Below are positions 2,860-6,651 of a DNA stretch of 7,310 nucleotides, in pieces. The notes under the pieces are model-generated. The model saw only the letters and a list, made by a program, of their open reading frames with translations. It made no database searches and was not told where the DNA came from. The DNA comes from Actinomycetes bacterium (lineage in GTDB: Bacteria; Actinomycetota; Acidimicrobiia; Acidimicrobiales; Palsa-688): assembly GCA_021827225.1 (NCBI GenBank), contig JAKAXG010000206.1, positions 1 to 7,310 of the forward strand, written 5' to 3'. Numbering within the stretch: position 1 is the stretch's first letter; every line of letters begins with the position of its first letter. The position numbers and the translations under genes were made by a program.

Positions 2860-3549
2860 ATGACAACCATCACCACGGATACGGGGCAGACCCTGGCGGA
2901 GCTGGTCTCCGCCAACCCGGCCCGGGCGGTCGTGCTCGACCGGATCGGCCTGGACTTCTGCTGCCACGGCAACCGCACCCTATCCGAGGCCTGTGACTCG
3001 GCCGGGCTCGACGCCGGGGAGGTCATGGCCGCCCTCGACGCAATCGCCGACGCCGTCCCTTCTGGGTGGACCGGCGGCGGCCGCAGGGAGCTGGCCGCGC
3101 ACGTGGAGTCGACCCACCACTCCTACCTGCATTCCGAGCTGGGGGCGCTGGAGGGTCTGGCCGCCAAGGTCCGCTCGGTACACGGTGACCGCCACCCGGA
3201 GCTGGCCGAGGTGGCCGCTCTGGTGGCCGAGATCGTCGCCGCCTTCCGCCCCCACCTGGCGGCCGAGGAGAACGAGGTGTTCCCCGCCATCTCCTCGCTG
3301 GCCCCGGCGACCGCCGGCGACGACCGGCTGGCGGCGCAGATCGACGGGCTGGTGGCGGAGCACGCCGCCATGGGCGCCAAGCTGGCCCACCTGCGCGACG
3401 TCACCGGCGGCTACGCCACGCCGGAGGACGGATGCGCCAGCTACCGGTCGCTGTACGAGCGGCTGGCGCACCTCGAGTCCGACACCCACCTCCACATCCA
3501 CCTGGAGAACAACGTGCTCTTCCCGGCCGCGCTGGTCGAAGCCGTGTAG
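2860..3549 (+). CDS. ric: Iron-sulfur cluster repair di-iron protein (ScdA/YtfE/RIC family)
   Basis: A cytoplasmic di-iron protein of 229 residues, the usual length of the family. Known members restore Fe-S clusters damaged by nitric oxide or peroxide. The N-terminal ScdA_N/DUF542 domain (about 11-60) has the signature LDRIGLDFCCHGNRTLSEAC, with the Cys34-Cys35 pair. The hemerythrin-like domain (about 75-227) shows the expected iron ligands: His86 or His87, His132-x3-Glu136 in PHLAAEENEVFP, His168 in EHAAMG, and His212-x3-Glu216 in HIHLENNVLFP. GGAAGGA at 2845-2851 lies 8 nt before the ATG and supports this start. The gene has its own promoter and an operator-like repeat upstream, so it probably responds to stress independently of the oxidoreductase gene. 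It converges on the MFS gene with 21 bp between stops, and no clear terminator is seen there. The symbols scdA and ytfE are used for homologues. Confidence 0.95.
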   Translation: MTTITTDTGQTLAELVSANPARAVVLDRIGLDFCCHGNRTLSEACDSAGLDAGEVMAALDAIADAVPSGWTGGGRRELAAHVESTHHSYLHSELGALEGLAAKVRSVHGDRHPELAEVAALVAEIVAAFRPHLAAEENEVFPAISSLAPATAGDDRLAAQIDGLVAEHAAMGAKLAHLRDVTGGYATPEDGCASYRSLYERLAHLESDTHLHIHLENNVLFPAALVEAV

Positions 3550-3570: not shown

Positions 3571-4854
3571 TCAGCCGGTCCGGCCGCCCACCAGCTCGGC
3601 GGCGCGGGCGGGCCGGCCGGTGGCTTCCGGCGGCGCCGAGGCGGCGGGCAGGCGGCGCCCGGTCATGATGACCCCGGTGCAGGCCAGCGCCACGGCTGCG
3701 AGAACGCCAAGCTCCAGGTCGGTGTGCATCCACCGGCCGGCGACCGCCAGCGCCGTGGGGAGCAGGAAGCCGACGTAGGACAGGGCGTAGTAGACGCCGG
3801 TCAGGGCCGGCAGCTCTTCCGGGCGGGCGGTGCGCTGGATCTCCAGCAGCCCGGCCACCAGCGCCACCCCGTAGGAGGCGCCCAGCACCAGGGCGGCCAG
3901 GGCCCCGAACCACGGGGAGTCGAGGGCCACGCTGATGGCAGCCACGACGATGCCCCCGGTCAGGGCCACCATCGCCGCCAGGATGGCCCGGGGCCGCGAC
4001 AGGTGGTCCAGGCGGCGGCCCAGCGGCTGCACCAGCACGCCGGCTCCCAGCGTCACCACCGTGAGGGCGGTGGCGTAGATCAGGGACCAGTGGCCCATCC
4101 GGGGGGCCATGCTCTGCGGGACGATGGCGTAGGCGACCCCGGCGGCCCCGAACACCCACGGCGCCATCGGCAGTACCAGCCGGCGGAACCTCGGATGGCG
4201 GACCGACGGGGTGCGGAGCCGGTCGGCCAGGCGCACGTCCGAGCCGGCCGGGCGGGTCTCAGCGCACCAGCGGGCCACCGCGGCGAGGACGGCCACGGTG
4301 AAAGCCAGGTGCACCAGGTAGGGAACCGTCTCGGGATGGGGCGACCACTGCGCCAGGACGCCGGCCACGCCGGCTCCTATCCCGAAACCGGCGGTCAGCG
4401 ACAGGGACGCCCGCCGGGCGCCGGTGGCCTGGGAGCGGCCGCGGGCGACGGTGAGCTCGGTCACCCAGGACGTGCCCACGGCCATGCCCAGGCCGACGGC
4501 CACGCCGCAGAGCAGGCGGCCGGCGGCGAGGAAGGGCAGGGCACCCACGGCGAGGGACGTGCTGCCGAGCCCCGACGCCGTCAGACCAGCCAGCATGACC
4601 CGGCGCCGGCCGTGGCGGTCGGACAGCGGCCCGCCGACGAGGAGGGCGGGAGCCAGACCCAGGACGTAGGCGCCGAGGAGGGCGTCGACCACGGTGGCGG
4701 AGTAGCCGTTGACGGCGCGGTACATGCTGAGCAGCGGGGTGAACTGGTTACCGCCCCAGCCGCACATGAACATGGCCGCGGAGGCCACCGCCCAGGCGGC
4801 GACCGGTGCCGTGCCGGCGGGTCGGGTGGGTCGGGTCGGCCGGGTGGGTGTCAC
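3571..4854 (-). CDS. Major facilitator superfamily transporter
   Basis: A 427-residue inner-membrane secondary transporter with about 12 hydrophobic segments, the first near residues 15-37. MFS motif A is clear in the loop after the second segment, GGPLSDRHGRRRVM (74-87), and a degenerate copy, QPLGRRLDHLSRPRA (276-290), opens the second half. GRLLCGVAVGLGMAVG (112-127) fits the fourth helix. Substrate and direction cannot be read from sequence; sugar, organic-acid and drug carriers all share these motifs. The GTG start overlaps the stop of the upstream GntR gene (GTGA, 4851-4854), so the two are almost certainly cotranscribed and translationally coupled; no Shine-Dalgarno is needed or seen. 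The N-terminus carries a short Thr-Arg-Pro repeat (residues 4-12). The next Met (28) lies inside the first membrane segment, which argues against a later start. The GntR protein is its likely regulator, possibly sensing the transported compound. Confidence 0.92.
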   Translation of the reverse strand: MTPTRPTRPTRPAGTAPVAAWAVASAAMFMCGWGGNQFTPLLSMYRAVNGYSATVVDALLGAYVLGLAPALLVGGPLSDRHGRRRVMLAGLTASGLGSTSLAVGALPFLAAGRLLCGVAVGLGMAVGTSWVTELTVARGRSQATGARRASLSLTAGFGIGAGVAGVLAQWSPHPETVPYLVHLAFTVAVLAAVARWCAETRPAGSDVRLADRLRTPSVRHPRFRRLVLPMAPWVFGAAGVAYAIVPQSMAPRMGHWSLIYATALTVVTLGAGVLVQPLGRRLDHLSRPRAILAAMVALTGGIVVAAISVALDSPWFGALAALVLGASYGVALVAGLLEIQRTARPEELPALTGVYYALSYVGFLLPTALAVAGRWMHTDLELGVLAAVALACTGVIMTGRRLPAASAPPEATGRPARAAELVGGRTG

Positions 4855-5522
4855 TGGCCGAACAGGAAGCGGTGGGTGGATTCGAAGTGCCGGTGCAGCG
4901 CAATGGCGAAACCGTCGCTGTCACCGCTCTCGGCGTGGCCGAGCAGGTCCCGGTGGTCGGCCAGCAGGTCGGCGAGCCGGTGCAGGTCCGCCCCCACCGC
5001 GGTGGCCGTCATGCGGCGCTGGCGGTCACCCAGCGCGGCGTAGAAGCGCGAGGCGAGGGCGTTGCCGGCGGCGTCGACCACGGCCCGGTGGAAGCGCTGG
5101 TCGGACGCGGCGAACCCCGGCAGGTCGAAGGTGGCGGCGTGGGACGCCTGCTCCCGCAGCTCGGTCCTCGCCGCCTCCAGCAGCGACGCCCGCTCGGTGC
5201 GCCGGGCCAGGCGCCGGACGGCGGACACCTCCAGCGCCTCGCGGACCTCCAGGACGTCGAGGGCGTCGCTGAAGGTCATGGGCGTGACCACCGCCCCCCG
5301 GCGGGGCATGAGCGACAGCAGACCCTCCGCCTCCAGCCGGACGAAGGCCTCCCGGGCGGGGGTGCGGCTGACGTGCAGCTGGCGGGCCACGTCGTTCTCG
5401 CTGAGCAGGGTGCCGCCGGTCAGCTGGCCGGAGAGGATCTGCTCCTTGGTGGTGTCGTACACGAGCTGGGCCGACGGCTGACGGTCGGACGGCTGACGGG
5501 CGGACGGCTGACGGGCGGGCAC
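4851..5522 (-). CDS. GntR-family transcriptional regulator, FCD subfamily
   Basis: A DNA-binding regulator of 223 residues from the chosen GTG. The winged HTH covers about 18-83 (LVYDTTKEQILSGQL, then SENDVARQLHVSRTPAREAF, then the wing PRRGAVV). The FCD ligand-binding domain covers about 90-215, with the expected metal ligands Asp141-x3-His145, His190 and His212. Such proteins usually bind carboxylates with a metal ion and repress neighbouring catabolic or transport genes. An alternative ATG at 5573 would add 17 residues encoded by the 46-bp palindrome. I prefer GTG 5522 because the palindrome looks like operator DNA and because a TAnnnT box at 5535-5530 lies 7 nt upstream, as in leaderless actinobacterial messages. 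Neither start has a good Shine-Dalgarno. Residues 4-18 contain a repeated RQPS-A/D unit. The gene overlaps the MFS gene by 4 bp and is divergent from the metallopeptidase gene. Family assignment is firm; the exact start is not. Confidence 0.93.
   Translation of the reverse strand: MPARQPSARQPSDRQPSAQLVYDTTKEQILSGQLTGGTLLSENDVARQLHVSRTPAREAFVRLEAEGLLSLMPRRGAVVTPMTFSDALDVLEVREALEVSAVRRLARRTERASLLEAARTELREQASHAATFDLPGFAASDQRFHRAVVDAAGNALASRFYAALGDRQRRMTATAVGADLHRLADLLADHRDLLGHAESGDSDGFAIALHRHFESTHRFLFGQ
5476..5520. repeat. Three tandem 15-bp repeats at the start of the GntR gene
   Basis: Three head-to-tail copies lie at 5476-5490, 5491-5505 and 5506-5520, with consensus GGCTGACGGGCGGAC. The second copy differs from the first by one base and from the third by one base. 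Because 15 is divisible by three, the array encodes a five-residue repeat (RQPSA, RQPSD) between the GTG start and the winged HTH and does not disturb the frame. Such arrays can change copy number by slippage. Confidence 0.85.
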
Positions 5523-5529
5523 GGCGGCC

Positions 5530-5535
5530 AGGGTA
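5530..5535 (-). promoter_or_regulatory. Candidate -10 box for the GntR-MFS unit
   Basis: Read on the - strand this is TACCCT, a TAnnnT hexamer, ending 7 nt before GTG 5522. It overlaps the outer edge of the 46-bp palindrome by 2 bp. No good -35 is found at 17-18 bp; the best TTGCAT has a 20-bp spacer and lies in the palindrome centre. If real, transcription begins at or next to the GTG and the message is leaderless. Confidence 0.35.
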
Positions 5536-5579
5536 GCCCATGCACACAAGCTTGCATGCAAGCTTGTGTGCATGGGCTA
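5534..5579. promoter_or_regulatory. Perfect 46-bp palindrome, probable GntR operator
   Basis: Base-by-base pairing about the centre 5556/5557 gives 23 matched pairs with no loop and no mismatch; the next pair outward (5533/5580, G and G) fails. The core is AT-richer than the surroundings. It divides into three abutting 12-bp units: CATGCACACAAG (5539-5550), CTTGCATGCAAG (5551-5562, itself palindromic) and CTTGTGTGCATG (5563-5574). The outer two are reverse complements of each other and match the central unit at 9 of 12 positions. FCD-type GntR proteins bind short palindromes next to their own genes, so an operator bound by more than one dimer is the likely role (inference). A cruciform or a transcribed hairpin is also possible. 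Confidence 0.75.
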
Positions 5580-5618
5580 GGCGGGCAGGCCCCGGGGTAC
5601 GGTGGCCGGGGAGGCAGC

Positions 5619-5984
5619 GTGGAGGTCGAGCCGTCGAGATTCCGGCAGTTGGTGGCGGATGCGCTGGACAGCATCCCGGAGGACCTGGGCCGGATGATGG
5701 ACAACGTGGCCGTCTTCGTCGAGGACTGGCCCACTGCCGAGCAGCTCGGCGGCCACCGGGGGACCCTCCTCGGGCTCTACGAGGGAGTGGACCTGACCCG
5801 GCGGTCGCCACTCTCCTACGGGGCGGTGATGCCGGATCGCATAACCATCTTCCGGGGCCCCATCGCCGCCCGCGCCCGGTCCGAGGAGGAGCTGCTCGAC
5901 ATGGTCACCACCACGATCGTCCACGAGGTGGCCCACCACTTCGGCATATCCGACGCCCGCTTGACGGAGCTGGGATGGGCCTGA
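5619..5984 (+). CDS. Small HExxH metallopeptidase family protein (PF06262, zincin-like)
   Basis: A protein of 121 residues, the usual size of this mostly actinobacterial family of zincin-like putative zinc peptidases. The zinc-binding motif HEVAHHFGISD (102-112) gives His102, Glu103 and His106, with a possible third ligand at Asp112. The family-typical N-terminal part (FRQLVADALDSIPEDLGRMMDNVAVFVED), LLGLYEGVDLT (50-60), MPDRITIFRGPI (71-82) and the C-terminal ARLTELGW are all present. There is no signal peptide, so it is probably cytoplasmic; substrates of the family are not established. The GTG at 5619 is chosen because GGAGG (5610-5614) lies 4 nt before it and the protein then begins at the family's conserved N-terminus; in-frame codons upstream run into the palindrome. 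It is divergent from the GntR gene, with the 46-bp palindrome ending 39 bp before its start, and converges on the gene ending at 6026. I see no convincing promoter of its own. Confidence 0.88.
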   Translation: MEVEPSRFRQLVADALDSIPEDLGRMMDNVAVFVEDWPTAEQLGGHRGTLLGLYEGVDLTRRSPLSYGAVMPDRITIFRGPIAARARSEEELLDMVTTTIVHEVAHHFGISDARLTELGWA

Positions 5985-6025: not shown

Positions 6026-6628
6026 CTAACCGCCGGCCCACCGGGCATCCAGCGGCCAGGTGGCCGCCGCTGACGCCAGGGCCTCCGCCACTAGGCGTCG
6101 GTGGATCTCGCACCCGCGGACCGCCGGCGGCAGTTCGACCTGCACGCCCGCCTGCGCCGGCAGGTTGACAGGGTTGGTGCGGTGCTGGCCCCGCAGCTCG
6201 GGCGGGATGCCGGCCAGGTCGGTGACGGCCTCGAACCCGGCCAGGCGGACCTTCAGATGGGCAGCCACATGATCGGCGAGCTCCCGGTTGCGACCGCCCA
6301 GCAGGAGGTGGCGGGGCCGGCGGTGGCGGCCGTAGCCGTGGACGGTGATCACGACCTGGACGTGGCGCAGCCAGGCGGCCAGGACCGGGGAGGCCCCCGG
6401 GTCGACGTCGCGGGAGGGAACGTGCCAGCGCAGCACGGCGGGCTGGTCTACCACGTACAGCGACGCCCCGGCGGCGGCCGCGGCCGCGGCGGCGATCTCC
6501 GCGGTGCCGGCCTCCAGGCCGCCGTGGTAGGCCATGAGACCGATCGCGGATGCGGTCTCGGCCCGCTCGGTGACGTCGGGATGGGCCAGCAGCTCGGACC
6601 ACCCGGCGCGGCGGGTAGCGGCGGGCAT
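6026..6628 (-). CDS. Poly-gamma-glutamate hydrolase family protein (DUF867/PF05908)
   Basis: A protein of 200 residues related to the zinc-dependent poly-gamma-glutamate hydrolase PghP, a carboxypeptidase-like fold first known from a Bacillus phage. Likely metal ligands are His35 and Glu39 in YHGGLEAGT and His97 in VITVHGYGR. Further family-like segments are VVDQPAVLRWHVPS (59-72), LLLGGRNRELA (108-118) and the NPVNL/VQVELPPAVRG region (152-172), whose Glu165 may be the catalytic acid/base. Bacterial chromosomal members are common in Actinomycetota and their true substrate is mostly unknown. No signal peptide is seen, so the protein is probably cytoplasmic and may not act on extracellular polymer. 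Residues 46-53 are an eight-alanine run encoded by a GCG/GCC repeat. ATG 6628 is the first in-frame Met before the conserved region; its Shine-Dalgarno is poor. It lies 23 nt after the stop of the secreted-protein gene, so the two are probably cotranscribed. Confidence 0.85.
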   Translation of the reverse strand: MPAATRRAGWSELLAHPDVTERAETASAIGLMAYHGGLEAGTAEIAAAAAAAAGASLYVVDQPAVLRWHVPSRDVDPGASPVLAAWLRHVQVVITVHGYGRHRRPRHLLLGGRNRELADHVAAHLKVRLAGFEAVTDLAGIPPELRGQHRTNPVNLPAQAGVQVELPPAVRGCEIHRRLVAEALASAAATWPLDARWAGG

Positions 6629-6651
6629 CAGCGCCGGACCGCCATTCCCGG

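Follow-up and report, generated by a model that had tools for sequence, protein, structure and literature searches.

A 46-bp perfect palindrome upstream of an actinobacterial gntR-MFS operon reads as three abutting predicted operator units

Analysis of 7,310 nucleotides of DNA from an Actinomycetes bacterium (the whole stretch, referred to here as the window) revealed a 46-bp perfect loopless palindrome that is best read as three abutting predicted 12-bp operator units, CATGCACACAAG / CTTGCATGCAAG / CTTGTGTGCATG (5539-5574), extended by 5 mirrored bases on each side. Taken as a whole, it is very probable that the palindrome corresponds to a predicted autoregulatory operator of the gntR-MFS operon composed of three 12-bp units. 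The palindrome is thus predicted to be an element of an ordinary kind, namely, a gntR-MFS autoregulatory operator of the type described for Ms0535 from Mycobacterium smegmatis. The features of the locus are the following.

3571..4854, minus strand: MFS transporter gene; its start and the stop of gntR share 4 nt (GTGA)
4851..5522, minus strand: gene encoding the GntR/FCD (VanR-like) regulator, proposed start GTG at 5522
5530..5535, minus strand: TACCCT, putative -10 element for gntR, separated by 7 nt from the presumed leaderless GTG start
5534..5579, no strand: perfect loopless palindrome of 46 bp, identical to its own reverse complement (23/23 pairs, no spacer)
5534..5538, no strand: outer flank towards gntR, TAGCC, mirrored and lying beyond the 12-bp units
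5539..5550, minus strand: predicted operator unit 1 (outer), read as CTTGTGTGCATG on the minus strand, motif score 14.6
5551..5562, no strand: predicted operator unit 2 (central), the self-palindromic CTTGCATGCAAG, motif score 16.6
5563..5574, plus strand: predicted operator unit 3 (outer), CTTGTGTGCATG, motif score 14.6
5575..5579, no strand: outer flank towards the metallopeptidase gene, GGCTA, mirrored and lying beyond the 12-bp units
5619..5984, plus strand: divergent gene encoding a zincin-like metallopeptidase (PF06262), not a conserved neighbour

The sequence of positions 5534-5579 is TAGCCCATGCACACAAGCTTGCATGCAAGCTTGTGTGCATGGGCTA. The second-longest perfect palindrome of the window has arms of only 7 bp, and the number of palindromes with 23-bp arms expected from the window composition is ~1e-8. 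The GC content of the palindrome (24/46) is below that of the window (73.6%). The complete pairing and the low expectation bear out the original prediction that the palindrome is far beyond chance. Its placement between a GntR-MFS unit and a metallopeptidase gene was likewise confirmed by domain matches, the GntR/FCD-MFS pair being on the minus strand and the zincin-like metallopeptidase on the plus strand. The regulator matched PF00392 (1.5e-14) and PF07729 (2.4e-19), both above the cut-offs, indicating that it belongs to the FCD (FadR/VanR) subfamily of the GntR family. Comparison of plasmid records with window positions 5450-5700 gave no match.

Homologous loci were obtained by a scan of genome contigs, from which the best 80 of 585 relatives were taken, and were supplemented with four loci from whole genomes (L088-L091); L081, from viral contigs, and the duplicates L082-L087 were left out. 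Many of the 84 loci are from related genera, and counts made on them are not independent. The regulators of the best 80 of 585 loci, mostly from actinomycetes, are 36-53% identical, and the DNA-level comparison covers regulators below 60% identity. The nearest homologues returned by protein search (P0002-P0039) are 62-87% identical, P0002-P0020 being at 72-87%. A taxon is given in the source name for a few of them, and these come from MAGs labelled as Acidimicrobiales, Actinomycetota, or Acidobacteriota. The four added loci were the matches at E 1e-40 among 299 genomes from the class of L042's genome. In the class of L044's genome, the sole match among 395 genomes at E 1e-35 was the centre genome itself, and viral contigs contained one weak relative, L081.

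Word enrichment was determined on either strand in the 220 bp upstream of the 84 gntR genes (best 80 of 585 plus 4). The word AGATACAA was present in 33/84 upstream regions (~0.05 expected, pseudo-count included), TTGCATGCAA in 11/84 (~0.02 expected, pseudo-count included), CTTGTATCTA in 20/84, and CTTGTGTCTA in 19/84, the enrichment of these four words being several hundredfold. The 12-bp motif derived from the enriched words has CTTGTATCTAAG as its majority letters and CTTGCATGCAAG as a variant. Sites were detected in all 84 upstream regions (best 80 of 585 plus 4) versus 55/2244 background chunks, both counts being on training data. In a split-half test, 83/84 held-out loci contained the motif versus 15/2244 background chunks; for the two halves, at a score of at least 10, the counts were 41/42 and 42/42 loci versus 2/1106 and 13/1138 chunks. 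Here too, the motif was seeded with words counted across all 84 loci. This comparison with related loci, suggested along with the original prediction, therefore placed the unit upstream of the gene in 84/84 homologous loci (best 80 of 585 plus 4; below 60% identity). In the window, which was absent from every motif training set, the motif occurs at exactly three places (5539-5550, 5551-5562, and 5563-5574) and nowhere else at threshold 8. Across the 84 loci (best 80 of 585 plus 4), the pitch of neighbouring sites at threshold 6.5 was 11 bp (72) or 12 bp (26) in 98/118 pairs; at threshold 8, the upstream regions contained one unit (13 loci), two (60 loci), or three in a row (11 loci).

Among the loci listed, the best parallel to the window palindrome is L053, from a Rhodococcus MAG, which has the same 46-bp, three-unit layout: TACCC CTTGCATGCAAG GTTGCATGCAAG GTTGCATGCAAG GGGTA. 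This array is a near-palindrome (21/23 pairs) with three TTGCATGCAA units at a 12-bp pitch and TA at both ends. Perfect loopless palindromes were also found upstream of the homologous gene in the mycobacterial loci L104 (40 bp), L101 (34 bp), and L018, L102, and L109 (32 bp each). Upstream of gntR, L061 and L064 harbor perfect inverted repeats with long arms (15 and 17 bp); these repeats have no operator unit inside and were excluded from the operator palindrome count. The two-unit pattern (up to 2 mismatches) was present in 18/198 genomes sampled from the genus to which L018's genome, a Mycolicibacterium and itself one of the 18, belongs, at one place per genome; the reversed control had no matches. 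Each of the 18 places precedes a gene for a regulator relative, and an MFS relative is encoded in the same locus. The mycobacterial loci fetched by this pattern have two-unit arrays, and their regulators share 47-51% identity with the window regulator.

Footprinting of Ms0535 (MSMEG_0535) placed its site, CCTTGCATGCATTCTTGCATGCAAGG, between -19 and -44 relative to the start codon of its own gene, which shares a transcript with the MFS gene Ms0534 (PMC4609117). The window locus resembles this system by its GntR/FadR (VanR-like) regulator, by an MFS gene in the operon, and by TTGCATGCA repeats, which form the footprinted palindrome of Ms0535. TTGCATGCAA-type units are found upstream of the window regulator, and the MFS gene comes next with a 4-nt overlap. 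The two sites are comparable in position (-19 to -44 for Ms0535, -17 to -52 for the window units) and differ in the number of elements (two repeats versus three units). The Ms0535 authors described one 26-bp motif with a 4-nt spacer rather than two 12-bp units, whereas by our reading the repeats are 12 bp apart (PMC4609117). By our comparison, the L018 operator differs from the published Ms0535 site at 2/26 bases. Judged from sequence, the operators described here, that of L018 included, and the Ms0535 footprint appear to be one kind of site. The published site, searched with 26 and then 25 bases, was found in 0/198 and then 0/396 genomes drawn from the genus, the M. smegmatis locus apparently not being among them. 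According to the authors' BLAST search, that M. smegmatis genome contains no other Ms0535 site (PMC4609117). When one repeat of the Ms0535 site was mutated, binding persisted as a single shifted band, and two-step binding was suggested in that study (PMC4609117). The homologue comparison and the published footprint of this relative strongly support the operator role proposed in the original prediction; the length claim did not hold in the same way, since the palindrome is not one unusually long operator but three 12-bp units in a row. The array is most likely a longer, fully symmetric three-unit form of an already known kind of operator seen in many actinobacteria.

The solved relative with the best E-value (2.5e-17) is Atu1419 (6z74) from Agrobacterium fabrum, which, like the window protein, is a VanR-type FCD GntR regulator. 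Atu1419 binds the 10-bp palindrome ATGTATACAT, which is close to TTGYATRCAA, with one palindrome per dimer (PMC7797058), in support of one dimer per 12-bp unit in the window. Unlike the abutting units of the window, the sites of the Atu1419 tetramer are 190 bp apart and involve DNA looping (PMC7797058). E. coli NanR on (GGTATA)3 offers a precedent for the close packing of three FCD GntR dimers at a single operator (PMC8012715), although the NanR site is made of direct GGTATA repeats, in contrast to palindromic 12-bp units. The window protein scored below the cut-off of the NanR model NF003011 (45.1 bits versus 260). Literature searches on GntR proteins with CTTGTATC and on VanR-subfamily operators returned nothing related in the material available.

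The longest gntR reading frame opens at ATG 5573, inside the palindrome, but the start of the gene is likely GTG 5522 rather than this ATG. Relative to the proposed GTG, the units extend from -17 to -52, beginning 16 nt before the start codon, and lie over the place of the -35 element; therefore, the stretch of the frame that follows ATG 5573 is probably operator rather than protein. TACCCT followed by 7 nt and GTG fits a leaderless actinobacterial promoter type, and the proposed -10 element overlaps the edge of the palindrome by 2 bases. The pattern TANNNT, 5-8 nt, and ATG or GTG in the regulator frame was present in 45/84 homologues (best 80 of 585 plus 4) versus 1/84 and 5/84 in the other frames and 22/3738 background chunks. 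It was not found in the remaining 39/84 homologues (best 80 of 585 plus 4), 22 of which have an open in-frame start codon inside a unit, indicating that the promoter layout differs among lineages. A tandem repeat (5468-5518, period 15, 3.4 copies) lies inside the start of gntR and encodes RQPSA-RQPSD-RQPSA, which lengthens the N-terminal arm of the regulator in comparison to the aligned homologues. In NanR, cooperation between dimers runs through an N-terminal extension (PMC8012715).

In the proposed mechanism, the three 12-bp units, spaced at roughly one helical turn, would cover the place of the -35 element, and the 10-bp core of each unit, related to TTGYATRCAA, would accommodate one GntR/FCD dimer. 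Up to three dimers could sit side by side and would set the transcription of gntR and of the overlapping MFS gene, and a small ligand, probably linked to the cargo of the MFS protein, would change the occupancy. Binding at this site, its stoichiometry, the leaderless start, the ligand, and the sign of control are features that we infer for this locus. The outer units are not self-palindromic, matching the central unit at 9/12 bases by our count, and it is therefore conceivable that the dimer axis sits at the AAG|CTT junctions, in which case there could be two sites rather than three. The position of the units over the -35 place suggests repression, which we regard as slightly favored. Ms0535 was called an activator by its authors on the basis of deletion and overexpression; they noted that the marker gene might have had a polar effect (PMC4609117). 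Activation, by analogy with these experiments, is a serious candidate a little short of probable, and it fits uneasily with an operator located over the -35 place.

The original prediction also proposed that the palindrome coordinates transcription in both directions. FadR-subfamily divergons with sites serving both operons have been described (PMC4494728), the palindrome ends 39 nt before the most likely start of the metallopeptidase gene (GTG 5619), and a bound array could affect the promoter of that gene. This proposal gained no support from the homologous loci, since a metallopeptidase relative was found in 0/84 of them (best 80 of 585 plus 4) at E 1e-4, with at least 700 nt of upstream sequence available in 80/84 loci. 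Furthermore, the arrangement of the units alone yields the symmetry, and a second target is unnecessary. We consider it improbable that the palindrome is a shared operator that controls the metallopeptidase gene in addition to the gntR-MFS operon. The MFS gene is a more regular neighbour: a relative follows the regulator in 64/84 loci (63/80 of the best 80 of 585 and 1/4 of the added loci), on the same strand in 64/64. It is missing in 17/80 of the best 80 of 585 and in 3/4 of the added loci, and one of the former 17, L044, ends 723 nt after the anchor. Elsewhere in the window, an inverted repeat noted by eye, TCTAGTA-GA-TACTAGA (2819-2834), lies in an AT-rich stretch before an ScdA_N-hemerythrin gene (2860-3549) and is possibly a regulator site, and a minus-strand reading frame (6026-6631) matches poly-gamma-glutamate hydrolase (PF05908).

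Perfect arms might also be produced by an assembly fold-back, one arm having been copied in error, or by the carry-over of a cloning sequence, as we take AAGCTTGCATGC to resemble the HindIII-SphI polylinker of vectors. An assembly fold-back would probably have copied much more than 23 bases in mirror image. The equal 46-bp layout of L053 and the perfect palindromes of L104 (40 bp), L101 (34 bp), and L018 (32 bp) precede the homologous gene, making a fold-back artefact unlikely; the unit is present upstream in 84/84 loci (best 80 of 585 plus 4), many of them from named isolates, and both polylinker contamination and assembly fold-back were rejected on this ground. We consider an artefactual origin highly improbable. 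The same very low probability applies to a structural element in which the symmetry itself is functional, such as a cruciform, an RNA hairpin, a terminator, or a mobile palindromic repeat. Such an element would account for the long perfect arms and for the mirrored flank runs of at least 3 bases in 6/71 arrays, although four of these six are from Mycolicibacterium. The units nevertheless persist in the 55/71 arrays in which the mirrored run outside the units is 0. A T-run is absent after the palindrome on both strands, and the two-unit pattern occupies a single place, before gntR, in each of 18 mycobacterial genomes, leading to rejection of a terminator and of a mobile repeat.

Within the reading as three operator units, the perfection of the symmetry calls for a separate account. 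The probability that two draws from the motif are identical is ~0.002 and that one draw is self-palindromic is ~0.008; thus, the units alone do not demand perfection. Flank complementarity at outward positions 1-6 of the 71 arrays was 0.23-0.31 versus 0.23-0.30 for shuffled partners, indicating that flank symmetry is no general requirement, and general recognition of the flanks was rejected. The six arrays with mirrored flank runs of at least 3 bases (shuffle mean 1.3, maximum 5 in 2000) are L015, L017, L018, and L020, all from Mycolicibacterium, plus L053 and L001; this excess is weak because four of the six share a genus. L109 carries ACAC/GTGT as its mirrored flank in place of the ACCC/GGGT of most of its relatives, a change on both sides. 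In L001 (a Pseudonocardia MAG), a separate inverted repeat (2923-2958; 17-bp arms, 94%, 2-nt spacer) spans the units and reaches a -10-like TACAGT.

A review on palindromes, in its available parts, gives no length threshold for bacteria (PMC7999016). Quite apart from that review, instability of palindromes in bacteria concerns mainly much longer palindromes. Quasipalindromes become more perfect through template switching in E. coli (PMC7202029), and the perfection of the arms and flanks of the window palindrome may have arisen by such correction of an already near-symmetric array. The original prediction of selection or recent formation is reasonable in this respect: the units look selected, judging from their conservation, and the extra perfect symmetry would be consistent with template-switch correction, on weak statistics.

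The analysis offers an explanation of a striking palindrome as an array of predicted operator units and extends a footprint known from a single mycobacterial regulator to a motif that precedes every one of the 84 homologous genes (best 80 of 585 plus 4). It also suggests that the published 26-bp Ms0535 motif may be re-read as two 12-bp units. A broader proposal, which we regard as speculative and rather unlikely, is that widespread actinobacterial regulators use abutting dimer sites at a spacing of one helical turn, from two to three, and that template switching during replication repeatedly makes such arrays into perfect palindromes reaching into the -10 element; if this were true, a mutational process would shape an operator. 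The locus would provide a compact natural test of how many FCD GntR dimers can be accommodated next to one another and of whether promoters undergo template-switch correction.
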